Assembly (NCBI GenBank): GCA_001460835.1
Contig: CYKH01001563.1
Location: 885 to 48,622, forward strand
DNA from: Bodo saltans
Lineage: Eukaryota; Euglenozoa; Kinetoplastea; Eubodonida; Bodonidae
DNA: 47,738 nucleotides
Direction: 5' to 3'
Within the stretch, counting starts at the first letter, position 1, and the number at the start of each line of letters is the position of its first letter. Positions 2 through 23,942 of this stretch are shown here, piece after piece. The notes beneath the pieces are model-generated. The model made no database searches, was not told where the DNA came from, and saw only the letters and a list, made by a program, of their open reading frames with translations. The position numbers and the translations under genes were made by a program.

Positions 2-415
2 GCCGCGTTCCCCGACGACGACAGCAATTCGTGGAGCACCGCAGCGAGTGACGTGTTACAGGCGCAATTCTACGTTGGCGCCGCGTTGGTGGTGATCGAC
101 GGGCTATACTCCCGTCGCATCATCAACGCACTTCGTAGCTTTTTCGACGTTTCCACTGCAGCCGATCAGACTGCAACTGTTCAAGGTGATCGTACCGACG
201 ATGTTCCCCTTCTACACAGTCAGCAGCGCCTCCTGGTATCGCCATTGCCAACGACCGCTCGACATTCTACTGTTGCGTTGCTGCCGCCGTCTAAACTTCT
301 GCAACAACAGTCACACCACCCAAACATCAGCGTCAATTCTAATCATCAACTTGAGAGGCTGATTGCGACGATTTGCAAGTCGTCACGCTCGCACGGTGGA
401 CGTGAGGAACATTAA
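2..415 (+). CDS. C-terminal end of an unknown protein (5' truncated by window)
   Basis: The frame is open from the first bases to a TAA at 413-415, giving about 137 residues with no start in view, so the gene begins left of the window. I do not recognise a family. The first half has a moderately hydrophobic patch (FYVGAALVVIDGLY); the second half is Ser/Gln/His-rich and looks disordered. The only candidate start inside is a GTG at 53, which kinetoplastid genes do not normally use, so the entry is treated as a partial gene. Confidence 0.5.
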   Translation, partial: AAFPDDDSNSWSTAASDVLQAQFYVGAALVVIDGLYSRRIINALRSFFDVSTAADQTATVQGDRTDDVPLLHSQQRLLVSPLPTTARHSTVALLPPSKLLQQQSHHPNISVNSNHQLERLIATICKSSRSHGGREEH

Positions 416-837
416 GAAAAAATAGTGATTATGAGAGTAGGGGGAAAAAATATGAGTGAAGCAATGCTGGGGCCACAATTCATTTTCCGATATTTTTGTA
501 TTTCATGCCAACGTGGTGCAATCTTTGCACTCCCCCTTCTTTTTGTATTTATTGCACCTTACCTACTCGACGAAAAAACAAAGGACTCGAAACGTAAAAA
601 AGAAGAATTGTGAGTTGAGGCAAGAAAAAACGTTTTTCTGGCACACTTTTTTTTGAAAGCAACATTCTCGAAAACTTTCTTTTTTAAAAGAAAGAATGTG
701 ATGGACAAGCGAGATATGTTTGTGATTCTCAAAATAAAAAAAAAAAAACGTCACTGTTATTGTCGTTGTTGTTTTTGTAAACCAAGAAAAAGGTGTTCGG
801 GTGACGAAGATCTTTCCGCGTCTGTGTGTGCCTCTCT
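416..837. other. Intergenic spacer, no gene seen
   Basis: About 420 bp with only short low-complexity frames. T-rich stretches at roughly 480-560 and 640-690 and an A-run at about 737-750 fit a 3' UTR followed by a trans-splicing polypyrimidine region for the next gene. No tRNA or repeat was recognised. Confidence 0.5.
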
Positions 838-2490
838 ATGTCATCGATCGGCAACAACAGCGTGCTGCTGCTCCCCCCAAGTTTTGGCAGCAGTACGTTG
901 TTGCTTTCAGCCGTGTCGACAAGAATGGCAACGATTGTTTCAGAAACTCTTGCTAGCGTAAAATTTGTAGTGTTACGAGGAGAAACTTCTACCATCGCCT
1001 CGCCACCAAGCCCAAACCTTTTGATTTTATCGAGGCGCATTCTCACAAGCGTCTGTGTGCATGGCGCAATGTTCGTGTGCGCATCTGCCGTGTGGCCGAT
1101 GCTTCGAGGCCCTGTTGCCCGGGCTGCCGCGAGGGGACAACAAAAACTGGTGGACCTTGCAACTGTTGTGCTACAGATGCAAGGCGCAACAGCTTCTGCA
1201 TCTTCTGCTACGAGTAGCAGAAGTAACGCAGCGCTGTCACCATCTCCGCTGCTGAACAACAACAACGACAATAATTTGGCGTCCACAACATCATCAACAG
1301 GCAGCAATACCAACGCGTCGACAACATGGCCTCCTCCACGTGCCCAACATCAACCACAACAACATCAGGCGCAGCCAAACAGACCACCGTCATCAACGCA
1401 AATTCCTTTGCTCTCGTCGACCATGTCTGGCACTCTAGAGGAGGTTGTTTCTCTTCAACGCACAACACCGAACGTCTTTGGCCAGAAGATCGCTGCGATT
1501 GTTCAGCGTGGGCTGTGGTGGGTGCAAGCTCGTGTGGCGGGTTGGTTTGTGCGTAGCATCGTTGTAGGCGGTGCTGTGATGTGTTTATGCGAGTTGGCGG
1601 ATCGACGGGGCTTCCGTTGCCCCGCCCAACTGTCCTCCTCATCATCTACTGCTATGTCATGGTTTCAGTTTTACGATGTTGTCGGGACGATGCCGGGCCG
1701 TTGGGAATTACGATTCCCTTGGTTGCTACAGTTTCCTTCTTTCATCCTCGAAGGTCTTCCATTAGGATACCTCCCCACGATATTCCGAGTTTCCCACCAC
1801 TTCGGCAACACCGCCGTATCGGATCGCCTCCTGGCAACCGATGGCATTCGTGTTGCCATGAGCGAAGAGCAAATCGGAGCGATGCTGAGAAGCTGGCGTT
1901 GGCCTGCCTACGTTGCGTGGTACATTTGTCGAAAGCACCTCGATCGATTTGCGGGATGTATCGCCAACAGTTTACGGGATCTTGCGAACTACGCGCGGAG
2001 AAAAAAGCATCATCGTCATCAACATCGGCGCCACAATCGTCACCACCAGAACAGCAACAACACTGTGGCAACGGAGGATACGTCATATACGATAACGTCA
2101 GTTCACTCTGAACAGCAACAACAACAACAGCGCCGTCGTGACACATCGCCAATAATGAGCAGTCAGAACAGCATAGGTGGCGGGTCTGTCGCATCATCAA
2201 AGGCATCAACAGTCGACCGCCGTGATAATAATGCGACTAGGCAACGTTCTCCGGCGAATGCTCCATCATCATCCTCATCGCCCCAACAACCAGATCATCA
2301 ATCCACCACCACCGCCACAACACCACGCATCATCGCATACGAGCTCTTTCATGTCGCCAAGGGAGCGGTGCTCACAGCAATCGTGGTGTGGGTGGGAGGA
2401 AAGATTCCCTTTCTAGATTTCCTTCCAATTGTTGGTGGTCGTGGGGCTGCGTATGCTGCGGCTTCGCTGCTGTTTACCATCTTGCCTTGA
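838..2490 (+). CDS. Unknown membrane protein, Gln/His/Ser-rich
   Basis: The ATG at 838 is the first in a frame that stays open for 550 residues. I do not recognise the family. Hydrophobic segments lie near residues 74-90, 238-255 and in the last 40 residues (about 510-550, ending ...AAASLLFTILP), so a membrane protein with a C-terminal membrane segment is likely. A Trp/Phe/Pro-rich globular part sits at about 275-375, including SWRWPAYVAWYICRKH. It is flanked by low-complexity linkers (Gln/Pro/Ser near 125-210; His/Arg and poly-Gln near 385-500) encoded by CAA/CAC/CAT-rich DNA. The folded part between two disordered linkers is the most useful query for remote-homology search. Possible organelle membrane location is only a guess. 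Confidence 0.7.
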   Translation: MSSIGNNSVLLLPPSFGSSTLLLSAVSTRMATIVSETLASVKFVVLRGETSTIASPPSPNLLILSRRILTSVCVHGAMFVCASAVWPMLRGPVARAAARGQQKLVDLATVVLQMQGATASASSATSSRSNAALSPSPLLNNNNDNNLASTTSSTGSNTNASTTWPPPRAQHQPQQHQAQPNRPPSSTQIPLLSSTMSGTLEEVVSLQRTTPNVFGQKIAAIVQRGLWWVQARVAGWFVRSIVVGGAVMCLCELADRRGFRCPAQLSSSSSTAMSWFQFYDVVGTMPGRWELRFPWLLQFPSFILEGLPLGYLPTIFRVSHHFGNTAVSDRLLATDGIRVAMSEEQIGAMLRSWRWPAYVAWYICRKHLDRFAGCIANSLRDLANYARRKKHHRHQHRRHNRHHQNSNNTVATEDTSYTITSVHSEQQQQQQRRRDTSPIMSSQNSIGGGSVASSKASTVDRRDNNATRQRSPANAPSSSSSPQQPDHQSTTTATTPRIIAYELFHVAKGAVLTAIVVWVGGKIPFLDFLPIVGGRGAAYAAASLLFTILP

Positions 2491-2781
2491 AGTGGAAGGG
2501 ATGATCGATGGAAATCTCGAAATAAACATCCGAGGAGTGCACGATGGTAGTTCACCGCGTTTTTTTCCCCTTCTTTAGGAGAAGGTGCCAAGAAACAAAC
2601 GCTGCGCCCTTCACATACATACATTTGCTCAAAGAAACAACCACGCCAAATGGGGGTACAACGAATGCCTGTCAAAGCAGAATGCAAATGCTGCTCTCTT
2701 TTCGTGCACTCTTTTTTTTTGGAAAGAAGTGGAAGTTAGGCAAGAAAGTTAGCGTCACATCACTCTCACGAAATTAAGAAT

Positions 2782-4503
2782 ATGTTTGACACCTTAGGAT
2801 TAGGAGGAGACAGAAGAGCACACACTGCGATTCCTGGTCCTCGCGGTGCTGTTGGAGAGGCACACCAACAACAACAACAACAACAGCGCAGTGGAGGTGG
2901 AAAAGGGCACGTGCTTCAAGTAGAAAAGAACATGCCTAGCATCGTCGGGGTGCTTGGCGATGTCGATCGGTTGTATCGACCAGAAATCACGGAGCGCCTC
3001 TTTGGACCGCCTGAAGTAGAGGCCGATCCGAGGAAAACAGCAGAAGGCAGGTATCACGCGACGGAGCGGAGCAAGAATGCCTCGGGCGAACGCGTAGTGA
3101 TGAAAGCCTACAATAGCAACAACACATTACCTCCGGCTGTGGCGGGAGCGTCGTCGCCTTCGTCGGCACTGGTCGCGTCGTCGGCCCCGTTTTCTGAGAC
3201 GATCTCACAAGGAGGGCAGAGCAACAGAACAACGTCGTCAACGGCTGCTGCGACGACATCGTTGCTCTCTGGGGTATACCACAGCACCGCCGCCACAGAT
3301 GTTTCATCAGGGCAGCAGCAACGTCTGTTGTTTGACGTCAACCGTATTTCCACCCGCCGTGCGGAAGCGCTTCCCCAACACGAGTTGCGAAAACTCCAAC
3401 AACGAGCACAACTCCTAGAACACCAGCTGCACCAGTGCCATCAGTCCATTGAGAACCGTGAGGCAGAAATTCAAATTGTACAAGGGCTGAGGGACTTACA
3501 TATTGCCAAGAAGAAAACACGACTTGGGTATGCGGTGAAGGATTACGAGACTCTCAATCGACAGATACGTCGCGCAAAGACTGCTGCTGCTGCTGCTGCC
3601 GCTACGCGTACTCCTACCACAGCAGCTACTGCAACAACTGCAACAATTGTTAGTGCTGGCACTCACATGGACACTTCAATAACGACAACGAATGCACCAT
3701 CGATGGGAACAACAGCAACATTATCAACATCTTCACAAAAACCTTTTGCTCCCACGAAAACCTTCGTCGATCATTTTAGCCATCAGGCCGCAGAGCGTGC
3801 CGTGAATCACAACCGGCTTACCCAACGCCACGGGGTGCCCACCTTTCACAGCGGTGCTGGTATTCCAGGGGAGAGCGACGGATATTGCCTCCCGGAGCGA
3901 CATCGCCGCCAACAACAACAGCTTCTTCTTCCCCAAGGGTCGCAGTCGTCGACCACCGCAACCACTCCCTTATCGCCGTCGCACAACGCTGGAGGTGGTG
4001 GTGAGAGCACTTTCCATCCTCAGTTTTCAAGTTCATTCGGAGGGGCTACCAGTACAACCGCCGCGTCGACGAGCGGCTCTGCGTTCGACCAACATCACCA
4101 CCACAATAATTTGGCATCGTCGGTTCGTGATTCTGCTCAGTGGCGTGGCGCAACTGCCCTCAAGCCACGGGAGCTGATGGACCGAGTCGCCGTGCCGCCA
4201 GTGAGGTGCCACACTAGTCACCAACCTGTAGGACCTCGCCATTTTCCCCAACTTCACTCAACACTTGCACCTTTTGCTGCCCAAGACCATCAACCGATGC
4301 CTCAGAGACGGGAGTTGGCGCAAGCCCGCATTACGACGCCATCGACGTGGTTGGAACGGCAAGCGCATCGCAGTGTGGTGGAGTTTAACAAGGCGATTGT
4401 GTTCACGCCGAACTTGCGCCGAGAACCGATGGCCACGCGGACCAACACGATCCCGCTATTGGCGCCGAATGGCAGCGGCAGCAGCGTCTCTGTGGAACAA
4501 TAG
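2782..4503 (+). CDS. Coiled-coil protein of unknown function
   Basis: ATG at 2782, 573 residues, stop TAG. A poly-Gln run lies near residue 30. A charged, heptad-like coiled coil spans about residues 200-266 (HELRKLQQRAQLLEHQ onward), followed by poly-Ala and a long Thr/Ser/Gln/His-rich disordered region. The last ~50 residues become ordered-looking again, with a Trp-Leu-Glu and an FNKAIVFTPNLRRE stretch. No enzymatic motif or signal peptide is visible. The coiled coil suggests a structural, possibly cytoskeletal, role, but this is inference; I do not recognise the family. Confidence 0.75.
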   Translation: MFDTLGLGGDRRAHTAIPGPRGAVGEAHQQQQQQQRSGGGKGHVLQVEKNMPSIVGVLGDVDRLYRPEITERLFGPPEVEADPRKTAEGRYHATERSKNASGERVVMKAYNSNNTLPPAVAGASSPSSALVASSAPFSETISQGGQSNRTTSSTAAATTSLLSGVYHSTAATDVSSGQQQRLLFDVNRISTRRAEALPQHELRKLQQRAQLLEHQLHQCHQSIENREAEIQIVQGLRDLHIAKKKTRLGYAVKDYETLNRQIRRAKTAAAAAAATRTPTTAATATTATIVSAGTHMDTSITTTNAPSMGTTATLSTSSQKPFAPTKTFVDHFSHQAAERAVNHNRLTQRHGVPTFHSGAGIPGESDGYCLPERHRRQQQQLLLPQGSQSSTTATTPLSPSHNAGGGGESTFHPQFSSSFGGATSTTAASTSGSAFDQHHHHNNLASSVRDSAQWRGATALKPRELMDRVAVPPVRCHTSHQPVGPRHFPQLHSTLAPFAAQDHQPMPQRRELAQARITTPSTWLERQAHRSVVEFNKAIVFTPNLRREPMATRTNTIPLLAPNGSGSSVSVEQ

Positions 4504-8403: not shown

Positions 8404-10029
8404 ATGCTGGGTTCACCGATTGCTGCAGCGACACGTTCGCTTGACGACAGCGTCTTCCGCCCCCTCCACCAAGCTTCGCTCGGTATCCGGCCTTGGCTCA
8501 CGTTGCCCGTCACAATAATACCATCATCAACTAAAAACATGGAGCACTTTTTCTCGCCATCTTCTTTGTCATCTTCGCTCTCGCCACCGCGGAATCGGTG
8601 GTGGGTAAATGCAGAAGATGCGGCAAGTACTGTTTCCTCTCATCCGGCATCTCTGCCAACCTCAACGACGTTTTCACTTCCACCTTCTCACAACAACGGT
8701 GCGATGATGACGGCGGCAACGCTCTTTGCTGTTGGCGTGACCATCGGGTTTGGGTGTGGTATTTATGCCAAGCACGCAACTCGATGGGTCACACGTTGGA
8801 GGTCTGACCGAGCCCTTGCCCAACTTCGTCGGCAGCTCCCCCACAGCACCTTCTCGCCTGCCGTCACTTCAGACCTCTCTCGTAGTCTTCTCTTACAAGA
8901 GCTTCAACGCACTGGGTACACCGCTGTGTATTCTCGTGTACTCCGGTCGCCTGCGTGGGTCACGTATCTTGTCACACCCCAAACTTCTACGTTTGCGGCT
9001 CAGGTGGACAGAAGTAACATGTTCATTGCGGACAAGGACGTTCCCAAAGAAGATCGCTGGACCGCGCTTGACGTCAGGAGCCAGGCAGCAGGGGGCGGTT
9101 ACGACCGTGGACACTTGGCACCCCACGGTGCTGTGGGCTGTTGCGAGACAAGCAGTGCAGAATCATTTTTGCTGTCCAACATCGCGCTGCAACATCCGAA
9201 GTTGAACAGACGATCGTGGAAACAGTTGGAGATGGCAGTGACAAAGCACGTGGAAACACAATTTCGTGCGTGTCAAGCGAGCAACATGTCAACAACAACA
9301 ATCAAGAAAAAGACTTCATCGTCCATGATGAGCGTTGCGGCAGTAACAGTCGGCCCATTGTTCGGTCCCAAAGCGGTCACATCTGCGACAACAATGACGA
9401 CCAAGAAGGAAATTTCTTCTGCTTCCCTAGTGAATGAGGTACGCATCCCTGAAGCGTTCTTCATGGCTGTCTTTGACACGCAAACTGGCTGTACTGCGGC
9501 GTTTGTGGCAACCAACGATGCTCGCGCTTTGGTCACTGCGATGCCGCTCACGCATCTCGAGCAGAGATTAGGGAAAGAGTATGGTGGTTGCGGCATTGTT
9601 GGTGAAGCAGCAGCTCAACCTATTCGTTTGTTTTCACAATACCGTGATGAGGAGGACGACACTGTGCTAAGTGCTGTGGCACGTAGTGGCAACAACATTT
9701 CACGCACCATCAAAACTGTGCGACGACGCGTGACACGCATACTTCATCAAAGGTTGCCTCTGTGCGTGTTGAAGGCAACTGGGGCGTCTGCTGCTGTTGT
9801 CCATGCACGGCACTGTGGTGTGGCACGTATTGATGCAGCTGCCACATCGGAACTTCACTTACCAACAGGATCGTCGTCGTCGTTGGCTCACCGTGCCGTT
9901 GCCGCTGGCTCTCCAAAAGCACTGCTCCGTCGTCGAGGACGCGGTGGTCGTTCGAGCATAGGTACAAAGAAGAACCTTGCGCGGCTGTCCAAGGCCAATA
10001 CATGTATGTCGAAGCTCGGCAATGAATGA
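8404..10029 (+). CDS. EndoG/NUC1-like DNA/RNA non-specific endonuclease
   Basis: ATG at 8404, 541 residues. A membrane-anchor-like segment (TAATLFAVGVTIGFGCGIY) lies at about residues 103-121 after a long Ser-rich leader, as in mitochondrial EndoG proteins. The signature DRGH is at residues 234-237, with His237 the expected general base, followed by LLSNIALQ and LNRRSWKQLE, where Asn268 is the expected Mg-binding Asn. The VTVGPLF and VRIPEAFFMAVFD strands typical of the beta-beta-alpha-metal fold follow, with a Thr/Ser/Lys-rich insert between them. The family cuts DNA and RNA and acts in mitochondria and in programmed cell death; that role is inferred. The protein is longer than typical EndoG (about 300 residues) because of the leader, the insert and a basic C-terminal tail. 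Confidence 0.9.
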   Translation: MLGSPIAAATRSLDDSVFRPLHQASLGIRPWLTLPVTIIPSSTKNMEHFFSPSSLSSSLSPPRNRWWVNAEDAASTVSSHPASLPTSTTFSLPPSHNNGAMMTAATLFAVGVTIGFGCGIYAKHATRWVTRWRSDRALAQLRRQLPHSTFSPAVTSDLSRSLLLQELQRTGYTAVYSRVLRSPAWVTYLVTPQTSTFAAQVDRSNMFIADKDVPKEDRWTALDVRSQAAGGGYDRGHLAPHGAVGCCETSSAESFLLSNIALQHPKLNRRSWKQLEMAVTKHVETQFRACQASNMSTTTIKKKTSSSMMSVAAVTVGPLFGPKAVTSATTMTTKKEISSASLVNEVRIPEAFFMAVFDTQTGCTAAFVATNDARALVTAMPLTHLEQRLGKEYGGCGIVGEAAAQPIRLFSQYRDEEDDTVLSAVARSGNNISRTIKTVRRRVTRILHQRLPLCVLKATGASAAVVHARHCGVARIDAAATSELHLPTGSSSSLAHRAVAAGSPKALLRRRGRGGRSSIGTKKNLARLSKANTCMSKLGNE

Positions 10030-20811: not shown

Positions 20812-21403
20812 ACTAACAGCTCACATGTGAGGAAGTGTTGTTTTGCCTCCCATCGTCAACAGAGTCAGTTGTGTGCGCTGCAGGTTGTTGGGTGTGCGAT
20901 GATCCATCCGAGATGACTCTCTCTCTCTCTCTCTCTGTGTCTGCTAGAACTTTTTTTTTTTTTTTTGATGAAGTGAATTATTGAGGCGGTATGACGTGGA
21001 AGTGGCGTGACGACCTCGAAGTTGCCAACCAGCGACCCAACGAGAGAGATGACATAGTGTTTTTTTTTCTTGTTGTTTTTCTTTCGCCGCAATAAGCGAT
21101 GGAAACATTGAGTGCTCACACTACTCTAAACTGCATATCCCCTCCTCCCCAATTGCCGCATAGATATTTTTTCCCGCTGGTTCTCTCAACGGAGCAAAAA
21201 AAGTTGAGAGTTCCGGAAATTCTTTTGCGCTTTTATGTTTGTTTTCAATGTTCTGAAAAAAACCGAAAAGATGCTTATTACATTCAAAATCAGTGTACCG
21301 CTTCGCTCTTTCTGCTTTTTGATATTTTCAAGCAATCGTAAGGACGCATGTTACACACAGGCGCCACTACATCGTCTCGTATCGAAACAAACACCACAAA
21401 CCG
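20812..21403. other. Intergenic spacer with CT microsatellite and poly(T)
   Basis: About 590 bp. It holds a (CT)n run at about 20916-20937, a 15-T run at about 20951-20965 and another T-run at 21059-21068, all plausible splicing signals for the WD40-kinase gene. No gene seen. Confidence 0.5.
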
Positions 21404-22741
21404 ATGAGCTCCAACTTATCCGTTCTTTTACAACCAAACTCTGCCATCAACTCCGTTGCGTTCAGCCCCGACGGCAAACTGCTAGCAACGGGCAGCAATG
21501 ATTCTGCGACGAAGTTGTGGCGCGTTGCTGATGGTATGTGCACCGTGGCTCTTGCTGGCCACACCGGCGCAGTAAATTCTGTTGCGTTTAGTCCCGATGG
21601 CACGCTGCTCGCGACGGGCAGCGAAGACAACACGATGAAGCTGTGGCGCGTTGCTGACGGTGTGTGCACCGCAACCCTTGCTGGCCACAGTGCCACCGTG
21701 AGGTGCGTTGCGTTCAGTCCCGACGGCACAATGCTTGCGACGGGTGGTGAGGACAAGACGATAAAGCTGTGGCGCGTTGCTGACGGTGCGTTCACCGCAA
21801 CCCTTGCTGGCCACAATGACTTCGTGATGTCTGTTGCTTTCAGTCCCGACGGCACGCTGCTCGCGACGGGTAGTGAGGACAAGACAATAAAGCTGTGCCG
21901 CGTTGCTGACGGTGTGTGCATTGCGACCCTTGCTGGCCACATCGCGGCTGTGGCGTTTGTTGTCTTCAATGCAGACGGCACAATGTTTGCATCAGTAGGG
22001 GCAGATGGCCTTTGGTTAGTTTGGAATGTGAACTCAAACATGCCATTGTGTTCCAAGAAACTTCTTGACGTGAACGTTGATGATGTAGTGTTCGTTAAGT
22101 GTGACAGCCAGTGTTGTGTCCTTGAGTATTGTTGTGATCGAAACCCGACGAAGCTGCGTGCTGAGTTTCAGTGGACTACGCAGAAGAACGATGATACGAA
22201 TCCGAACGCATCTGTTCCGTTTTTTCCGCATGTTTTCTTGGAGGACGTAGCTGTTGGGAGCGTCATTGCCGGAGGCTCGTCGTGTGTGTTGTACAACTGT
22301 ACTTGGCGTGGAAGAAACTACGCACTGAAAAGGTACTACCCGTACGTTATTCGTCAAATTGCACGCGAAATCGCTATTGCGCCATATCTGCAGCACCCCA
22401 ACATTGTACGCGTGGTGGCCATTGTTGACTCTTCCGATGGTGATGCTCAAACTGTGGGACTGTTGATGGAACTGACGTCGGATTCGCTAGCAGTTGTGTT
22501 AGCATCACCTTCACGCCCCCCTCAAGCAACGATATTGCGGTGGCTGCACGAGGCTGCTCAAGGCATCGAGTACGCGCATCAATGCAGGGTGGTGCATAGC
22601 GACATCAAGCCGGAGAACATTATGACTGTTGTCAATGAGCAGCAGCACGGTGGCCAAAGTGACGGACTTCGCTTCGGCGAGCATTTTATCCACTCTTGGC
22701 ACTTTAACAGTACGTGGAACGCCGATGTTCATTGCGCCTGA
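21404..22741 (+). CDS. WD40-protein kinase-ADP-ribosyltransferase fusion, N-terminal part (frame-broken)
   Basis: ATG at 21404. Residues about 12-221 are five WD40 repeats of exactly 42 residues, four of them almost identical (SVAFSPDGTLLATGSED, KLWRVADGVCTATLAGH). A linker follows, then a protein kinase domain from about residue 283: Gly-rich loop (IAGGSSCVLY), Lys in YALKRYY, helix-C Glu in AREIAIA, and the catalytic loop VVHSDIKPEN (Ser replaces the usual Arg of HRD). Just after PENIM the frame loses homology and ends at 22741 in unrelated residues, while the kinase continues one frame over (next entry). The shift is one base forward, equal to one inserted or two missing bases. No signal peptide or membrane span. 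Whether this is a real lesion or a sequencing error cannot be told. Confidence 0.88.
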   Translation: MSSNLSVLLQPNSAINSVAFSPDGKLLATGSNDSATKLWRVADGMCTVALAGHTGAVNSVAFSPDGTLLATGSEDNTMKLWRVADGVCTATLAGHSATVRCVAFSPDGTMLATGGEDKTIKLWRVADGAFTATLAGHNDFVMSVAFSPDGTLLATGSEDKTIKLCRVADGVCIATLAGHIAAVAFVVFNADGTMFASVGADGLWLVWNVNSNMPLCSKKLLDVNVDDVVFVKCDSQCCVLEYCCDRNPTKLRAEFQWTTQKNDDTNPNASVPFFPHVFLEDVAVGSVIAGGSSCVLYNCTWRGRNYALKRYYPYVIRQIAREIAIAPYLQHPNIVRVVAIVDSSDGDAQTVGLLMELTSDSLAVVLASPSRPPQATILRWLHEAAQGIEYAHQCRVVHSDIKPENIMTVVNEQQHGGQSDGLRFGEHFIHSWHFNSTWNADVHCA

Positions 22742-23942
22742 GTACGCCGCTGGTGACACTGGTCCAACGAAGGCCTCTGACGTGTTCAGCTTCGGAATGA
22801 CGATGTGGTGCGCACTGGTGCCCCCAGGCACTGACCACGGTCTTGGTAGAATTGATCTTCAAGTGTGCCGAGCGCTAGACAAAGGTCGTCGACCACCGGT
22901 GGCAGCACTCGATCCGTTGCATGCGCACCTTATTGAGCGGTGCTGGGCAGAAGAGCCATCGCAGCGACCAAGCATGATTGAGGTTGAAGAGGCTTTGCGC
23001 AACTTGGTTGGGACCTCAGCGCAACCACGATCGAGTCCCTCATCGCAGTTGTGGACGACCCTGCTTCAGTCGTATCGTATGGAATCTGCATTGGCAGCTT
23101 TGCAGTACCGCCCAGTGGGACGAATCTTCTTCTCAGATGATATTGTCGATACGACCAACCCTTGTTATCGATTTGTTGCCGGGATGGCTGGCTCCTTGTC
23201 GACCAAAGTGCGGCGGGTTGTCATGGTGGGCGTTGATACTCAAACGGTTATCTCTTTTGATACTCTCCACGCAACTGAATTGGACAGTCGTTCCGTCAAC
23301 CCTGCCCTAAGCGAGAAGAACCCTACGGATGCTGCTTCAGTGGCGGGCCTTAACCGTTTGATGCAATCCTTCATTCCCGTCGACACTGCACCGGGCGAGC
23401 CACTGCCGTCTGCTCGCTTGCTTTTTGCGTGGCATGGAACAAAGCCAGACAAGATTGCCGCTGTGTGTCGAGACGGCCCCAGATCGCTGCGGACAACGGA
23501 CTGCGGATACTTCGGTGCTGGATCGTACTTTGCCCTCGAGGCCGCGTATGCTTTGCGCTACAGTCGTCCGGAGCCCGCCACCGGTGCTTGCGCCGTGATC
23601 CTGTACTTAATTTCTGTATCCCAAGTGAGGGTGATCACGCCGGAAAGGGATTATCGCAGGGTAGAAGACGACAACACTCCACATCTGCACGGCTTTAGTC
23701 GGTACTATTTGGGCAATAGGGACACCAATATGGCCCTTGCCCCTGGCTGCGATGCGCATTTCATTCCGGTGAAGGAATGCGGGTGTGTGCACCCACTCAC
23801 TGGGCATGTCATCCCTCGTAATGTTCAGTATCAAGCCGTAGATGAGTCATCTGGTGAAGCGGAAGCGCATGAGATTGTGATTGGAAGCCATCATCGGTGC
23901 ATCCCGATAGCCATTGTGTACTTTGGAATGGAGGAAATTTAG
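22626..23942 (+). CDS. WD40-protein kinase-ADP-ribosyltransferase fusion, C-terminal part (kinase end and PARP-type catalytic domain)
   Basis: This frame continues the kinase of the previous entry: AKVTDFASA (the DFG position reads DFA), TPMFIAPEYAAG (APE), SDVFSFGMTMW and RCWAEEPSQRPSM, in TKL-like order. After a spacer comes a PARP-type ADP-ribosyltransferase domain: LLFAWHGT (His, about 23433), GYFGAGSYFALEAAYALRYS (Tyr), a further beta region and HEIVIGSHHRCIPIAIVYF with Glu at the third catalytic place. The H-Y-E set suggests poly- or mono-ADP-ribosylation using NAD+, but activity is inferred. The frame is closed upstream by TGA at 22623-22625, so the switch from the first part must lie at about 22626-22660. 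Some ATGs exist here (22635), but a separate gene is unlikely because half a kinase would lack its ATP-binding lobe. Confidence 0.88.
   Translation: MLSMSSSTVAKVTDFASASILSTLGTLTVRGTPMFIAPEYAAGDTGPTKASDVFSFGMTMWCALVPPGTDHGLGRIDLQVCRALDKGRRPPVAALDPLHAHLIERCWAEEPSQRPSMIEVEEALRNLVGTSAQPRSSPSSQLWTTLLQSYRMESALAALQYRPVGRIFFSDDIVDTTNPCYRFVAGMAGSLSTKVRRVVMVGVDTQTVISFDTLHATELDSRSVNPALSEKNPTDAASVAGLNRLMQSFIPVDTAPGEPLPSARLLFAWHGTKPDKIAAVCRDGPRSLRTTDCGYFGAGSYFALEAAYALRYSRPEPATGACAVILYLISVSQVRVITPERDYRRVEDDNTPHLHGFSRYYLGNRDTNMALAPGCDAHFIPVKECGCVHPLTGHVIPRNVQYQAVDESSGEAEAHEIVIGSHHRCIPIAIVYFGMEEI

Follow-up and report, generated by a model that had tools for sequence, protein, structure and literature searches.

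Three described systems come closest to the gene region considered here, which joins WD40 repeats, a protein kinase and a PARP-type ADP-ribosyltransferase (ART). These are the NACHT-WD40 receptors of the HET-E/NWD type from Podospora, the TKL kinases (CTR1, TAK1, LRRK2, RIPK3) and the macro-PARP side of the PARP proteins (PARP13/ZAP, PARP15, PARP12, PARP14, PARP10), whose mono-ARTs mostly lack Glu as the third residue of the active site. In HET-E, the selected codons of the WD40 unit are 7, 9, 25 and 27, next to the conserved codons 8 and 26 (excerpt of PMC1805685). The TKL group has been reported absent from trypanosomatid kinomes (excerpt of PMC1266030). The region studied here lies at positions 21404-23942 on the plus strand of a 47,738-nt stretch of a Bodo saltans contig; this whole stretch is called the window, and coordinates of the gene are positions in it. 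The genome encodes one KMP-11 (178 bits), a protein of kinetoplastids, which supports a kinetoplastid source. The region belongs to a gene family that is real and unusual. The best overall explanation, which we hold with about even confidence, is an expanded family of sensor-kinase-ART receptors, plausibly serving in conflict or stress, with the window gene as a frame-disrupted member. Nearly certain is the anatomy of the best-kept members: one polypeptide each, in which an N-terminal module is followed by a TKL-like kinase and, at the C-terminus, by an ART of the PARP class with the residues His-Tyr-Glu (H-Y-E).

The initial annotation, made from the DNA letters alone, knew of no described kinetoplastid protein of this order. 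The architecture was not described in the literature titles and abstract openings searched, and the claim that it is undescribed rests on that literature search alone. In the portions of text available, the B. saltans genome paper (PMC4728078) does not mention kinase, ADP-ribos or WD40, a PARP survey (PMC4245714) mentions neither kinetoplastids nor Bodo and has WD40 once, for an ARH3 protein, and an article on viral NAD systems (PMC9503650) mentions neither WD40 nor kinetoplastids.

Domains and reading frames of the window gene

Two long open reading frames (ORFs, stop to stop) on the plus strand span the region, at 21404-22741 and 22626-23942; they overlap and lie in different frames. In the first, Pfam profiles matched five WD40 stretches (PF00400, E=1.5e-58, 193 bits, above the cut-off) and the N-terminal half of a kinase (PF00069, E=3.2e-16). 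The second contains the C-terminal half of the kinase (PF07714, E=7.1e-10) and a PARP match (PF00644, E=5.4e-7, 29.7 bits vs a cut-off of 26.7). In a residue table covering 11 paralogues of alignment A1 and the window pieces, the latter carry the kinase Lys, Glu, catalytic Asp and DF-A as well as H-Y-E of the ART (Table 1).

All these domains and residues had been named in the initial annotation, which also suggested a profile search of both frames; WD40, both kinase halves and PARP were recovered, so that its worry about a missing PARP match fell away. Its picture of one gene region holds for the order of the domains, but not for an open frame, which is broken inside the kinase. Misassembly of two loci, also considered there, is ruled out as the source of this order because WD40, kinase and ART follow each other in one frame on other contigs.

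Table 1 Features of the region, in window coordinates
Feature	Position	Strand	Basis
Candidate trans-splice acceptor: pyrimidine-rich tract then AG, upstream of first ATG	21303..21332	+	sequence read
WD40 region: four units of 42 residues, of which the first is not quite complete in the profile match, plus a fifth, degenerate one	21431..22054	+	Pfam, unit alignment
Kinase N-lobe and catalytic loop, first frame: ALKRY Lys, REIAI Glu, HSDIKPEN Asp	22205..22625	+	PF00069, residue table
Frame-overlap zone; reading frame switches inside the kinase	22626..22741	+	ORFs, junction alignment with paralogues
Kinase C part, second frame, DFA	22641..22997	+	PF07714, paralogue alignment, residue table
PARP-type ART and region before it (Pfam match 23424-23636): WHGT His, GSYFALEA Tyr, AHEIV Glu	23100..23939	+	PF00644, alignments A1/A2, residue table

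The frame switches between the catalytic loop and DFA, where the length difference between the window gene and its paralogues is not a multiple of three. In the junction alignment, the copies C871, C825 and C644a cross the same kinase site in one frame and with DFG; the window has DFA vs DFG in the close paralogues aligned. A full protein from the window copy is unlikely, because the frame is broken and DFA replaces DFG; most likely the gene was disrupted recently or its sequence contains an error.

A multi-copy family with different N-termini

A six-frame search of the 29.3 Mb genome (934 contigs) with the second window frame as query gave 36 matches. By our reading, they mark 19 places, spread over 15 contigs, at which the ART is present in part or in full: C556 (the window), C731, C29, C825, C686a/b, C685, C644a/b, C554, C871, C57, C730, C403a/b/c, C800, C764 and C692. 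A kinase or kinase remnant lies beside the ART at 15 of the 19; it is missing at C554, C730, C764 and C800, of which C730 is cut by a contig end. A single frame runs through WD40, kinase and ART in six copies (C871, C686b, C685, C57, C403a, C403b), and in two of them, C871 and C57, all three domains exceed the Pfam cut-offs. C871 encodes 1497 amino acids with 15 WD40 stretches and a PARP (PF00644) score of 38.6 bits.

In C29 (1353 amino acids) and C644a (1001 amino acids), kinase and PARP are over the cut-offs as well, preceded by N-termini that match no Pfam family and look helical by eye. The N-termini of C29 and C644b show remote likeness (22% over 507 residues, E=8e-14), and those of C644a and C644b share 33% over 261 residues. 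Different N-termini thus stand before a common kinase-ART, and the N-terminal module is therefore exchangeable. Through kinase and ART, four of 15 copies are frame-broken (C556, C731, C686a, C644b), as in a birth-and-death family.

Some copies have peculiarities of their own. In C731 (L029), another disrupted copy, a segment with the kinase catalytic loop is tandemly repeated with a frame change at 3960-4260. C403 contains at 44000-58500 (L040, L041) three tandem members with degenerate kinases and conserved ART Tyr and Glu, possibly a pseudokinase-ART cluster. Seven family copies or pieces (C825, C685, C730, C764, C894, C644, C686) are found no more than about 1.5 kb from a contig end, which suggests either assembly breaks driven by repeats or a special position on the chromosomes.

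Kinase and ART type

Among solved structures, the kinases of C29 and C644a match CTR1, TAK1 and LRRK2 best, and RIPK3 also ranks high for C644a; EGFR, FES, PknA, CaMKK2 and DCLK1 follow further down. In Pfam, the Pkinase model outscores PK_Tyr_Ser-Thr in C871, C29 and C644a. Judged by the closest solved kinases of these two paralogues, a TKL-like family kinase is supported, as had been proposed; unlike TKL kinases, it is fused to an ART. Copies that keep the Asp have HSD or HGD instead of HRD in the catalytic loop, and with Ser in place of Arg we take the kinase to be of the 'non-RD' kind.

When the family profile of the ART was compared with PDB, PARP13, PARP15 and PARP12 were best, with PARP13/ZAP at E=2.8e-6, PARP15 at 1.4e-5 and the values extending to 6.8e-5. 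The ART of the window taken by itself gave no significant match in PDB (phmmer, best PARP15, E=0.024). With the macro-PARP side the family ART shares PF00644 and the WHGT and G-Y-F-A motifs. It differs in keeping Glu as the third residue, in its own D-[AS]-H-F-I-P-V motif and in its fusion to kinase and WD40. The genome has other PARPs outside the family, by eye presumably one PARP1-like and two WWE-like.

Active-site residues and selection on the kinase-ART core

Besides the window copy, eight of the 11 aligned paralogues keep H-Y-E. Degenerate kinases are found in C686b, C685, C57, C403a, C403b and C403c; in the alignment C825, which begins at a contig end, has no Lys, and an N-lobe is missing from the C692b frame.

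The ratio of non-synonymous to synonymous divergence (dN/dS) in the kinase C part and ART was 0.18-0.27 in all ten pairs among C556, C731, C29, C825 and C871. It was 0.27-0.39 for pairs of C686b or C685 with these five copies and 0.64 for C686b vs C685. Purifying selection acts on the core in the five well-kept copies, and because its pairwise dN/dS is low, the window copy was under constraint until recently. With C29 as outgroup, 96 non-synonymous and 93 synonymous changes were counted on the window lineage and 40 and 50 on that of C731, a split that the closer relationship between C731 and C29 blurs.

WD40 units and comparison with HET-E

Six genes gave 36 unit matches, of which 29 gapless non-terminal units were compared. 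Their mean amino-acid identity is 0.62, and 0.65 within C871. As in the HET-E/NWD receptors, the WD40 units are of high mutual identity and variable at equivalent positions (excerpt of PMC1805685), although units of those receptors are about 85% identical (excerpt of PMC4986451) vs a family mean of 62-65%. Like those receptors, the family is also modular and multi-copy, with pseudogenes. The HET-E-equivalent sites were placed by the same spacing at unit positions 5, 7, 23 and 25, in a register that we infer. At these four sites the mean proportion of non-synonymous differences (pN) was 0.587 vs 0.207 elsewhere, and a value as high occurred in 21 of 111,930 position quartets.

Unlike the HET-E/NWD receptors, the family has its repeats N-terminally and no NACHT or other nucleoside triphosphatase (NTPase) domain was found. 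NACHT is absent among the Pfam matches listed for the two window pieces and 16 paralogue pieces, and a genome-wide search, made for NACHT and not for NB-ARC, gave nine matches, all of them outside the family's 15 contigs. Because no NTPase was found, the family is not NLR, and membership in NLR/STAND proteins of the HET-E type was rejected.

Another protein of the genome does have the HET-E-like architecture: C136 (L055) encodes at 346-3453 a NACHT-WD40 protein with a NACHT match of 43.9 bits and at least four WD40 stretches. NLR-like proteins thus exist beside the family, since the genome encodes NACHT proteins, one of them with WD40.

Relatives in bacteria

In a collection of genome contigs, 46 stretches fit the search pattern and four of them, L050-L053 from bacterial metagenome-assembled genomes of 1.2-1.7 Mb, encode a relative; among viruses, the search for the ART gave four pattern matches, none confirmed. 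L051 (230-2722) and L053 (128-3142) encode a kinase followed by PARP, L050 (2749-5079) PARP with ankyrin repeats, and L052 (1963-5349) PARP with TPR, along with NACHT-like matches that are weak and under the cut-off. The kinase-PARP proteins are collinear with the family and carry the D-[AS]-H-F-I-P-V motif; unlike it, they have no WD40 match and other C-terminal regions, and over 544 residues their identity to C29 is 25% (L051) and 23% (L053). L050 and L052 have one bacterial-looking neighbour gene each (HI0933-like and PDDEXK_9, respectively), another neighbour of L050 is without a match, and L053 has a reverse transcriptase as neighbour. In the order to which the L053 genome belongs, 131 genomes were searched and three matched, two with the kinase part only; the full match was the L053 genome itself.

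In an ART tree of 23 rows, the 12 family members group together (support 100/99), as do the four bacterial ARTs (97/93). These groups join each other with support 84/70 and are separate from seven other PARPs of the genome; long branches make this joining uncertain.

Possible function

To our knowledge, little is known about how single-celled predators recognise dangerous prey, symbionts and viruses. A multi-copy family of single-protein sensor-kinase-ART receptors, if true, would be a concrete candidate for protist recognition, would bring a TKL branch into a lineage with parasitic relatives that reportedly lack such kinases, and would carry antiviral-type PARP logic into a further eukaryotic branch.

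A sensor-switch-effector wiring seems somewhat more likely than not to us. The variable N-terminus, WD40 or other, would bind a ligand, and this binding would release or cluster the kinase. Phosphorylation, or scaffolding by a pseudokinase in copies with degenerate kinases, would then turn on the ART, which may transfer ADP-ribose from NAD+ to a target or consume NAD+, the output being a defence or stress response. A role in conflict, directed at bacteria, viruses or non-self, is a tentative proposal with a clearly less than even chance. Still more doubtful is the fullest version, a new family of innate recognition in a non-trypanosomatid kinetoplastid, which would combine HET-E-like variable repeat sensors, a non-RD TKL kinase, a PARP-type ART effector, birth-and-death turnover and a cassette in common with intracellular bacteria. 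The initial annotation had seen an immune-like logic in the domain order; the multiple copies, exchanged N-termini, broken or partial copies and HET-E-like variable sites lend this indirect support, but neither an NTPase nor a pN/pS (pS, the synonymous counterpart of pN) above 1 was found.

Several results weigh against the receptor family. All tested kinase and ART residues are kept only in C871, C29 and C644a of the 11 paralogues, and Tyr replaces the ART His in three (C685, C403b, C403c). C871, otherwise the best-preserved WD40 member, has an internally duplicated ART with two WHGT motifs (L037, 4701-6674). PARP scores fall under the cut-off in C685 (16.8 bits) and C403a (16.5 bits) and are borderline in C686b (26.3 and 29.3 bits in two scans), and the kinase of C403b is just under its cut-off (22.6 vs 23.1). 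Since Pfam scores are below or near the cut-offs, domain assignment in the sub-cut-off copies is based on alignment with other family members. The AlphaFold2 model of the ART, built from a five-row alignment, is of very low confidence, with a mean predicted local distance difference test (pLDDT) score of 40, and so is the single-sequence model of the WD40-kinase half (pLDDT 34).

The same applies to the WD40 units. At the four HET-E-equivalent sites pN/pS is 0.97 (bootstrap 0.83-1.16; pS near 0.6) vs 0.44 elsewhere, and because this is about 1, positive selection there is not supported. Unit positions 1, 4, 36 and 42 are highly variable too. The four sites were also more variable (mismatch 0.92 vs 0.69, p=0.04) in a control, too small to rely on, of four full-length units (out of five gapless ones) from the less homogenised WD40 proteins C57, C136 and C403b; variability at these sites may thus be general to WD40. 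Unit nucleotide identity within C894 (0.63) and C556 (0.62) is not above the between-gene value of 0.67, vs 0.72 within C871. Concerted evolution of the units is therefore not supported as a general rule, homogenisation being seen in C871 and not in C894 or C556.

A rival reading, well short of an even chance, is a family of stress- or nutrient-signalling proteins multiplied by chance duplications and without a role in conflict. Their N-termini would bind cellular partners, and kinase and ART would both act in common pathways, for instance those for RNA stress or DNA damage. This agrees with the purifying selection seen in the core, the ordinary same-strand neighbours of the window gene (alpha/beta hydrolase, DUF155), the failure of pN/pS to exceed 1 and the other PARPs of the genome; however, the number of copies (about 19), the exchange of N-termini, the loss of residues from kinase or ART and the broken copies are more in line with birth-and-death receptors than with a fixed signalling role. 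Movement of the kinase-ART cassette between intracellular bacteria and protists, either as a domesticated bacterial effector or as protist genes captured as effectors, is rather improbable. The kinase-then-PARP order of L051 and L053, their 544-residue matches to C29, the ART with ankyrin or TPR in L050 and L052 and the position of the bacterial ARTs beside the family point to it, but tree support is modest, branches are long, this genome alone represents the eukaryotes in the tree, and matches are rare within the order of L053. Because identity is low, any transfer would be old; the bacterial kinase-PARP fusions make its direction testable.

For the window gene as a disrupted member of the receptor family, the frame change itself has further explanations. 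A sequencing or assembly error in an intact gene has somewhat less than an even chance. Both halves are otherwise open, dN/dS of the window copy vs C731, C29 and C825 is still 0.21 and there is a short run of triplets at the junction, but a homopolymer is absent there, DFG has become DFA in this copy and three other copies are likewise frame-broken. Programmed frameshifting could join the two frames across their overlap of more than 100 bases, yet paralogues pass the same site in one frame, which makes this explanation highly implausible, although no search aimed at a shift site was made.

Other features of the window

On the minus strand, a long open frame runs antisense across the WD40 repeats (21367-22167); it is probably a by-product of codon use in the repeats and not a gene. 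At 8404-10029, the window encodes a protein with a DNA/RNA non-specific endonuclease domain (PF01223, E=3.7e-26).

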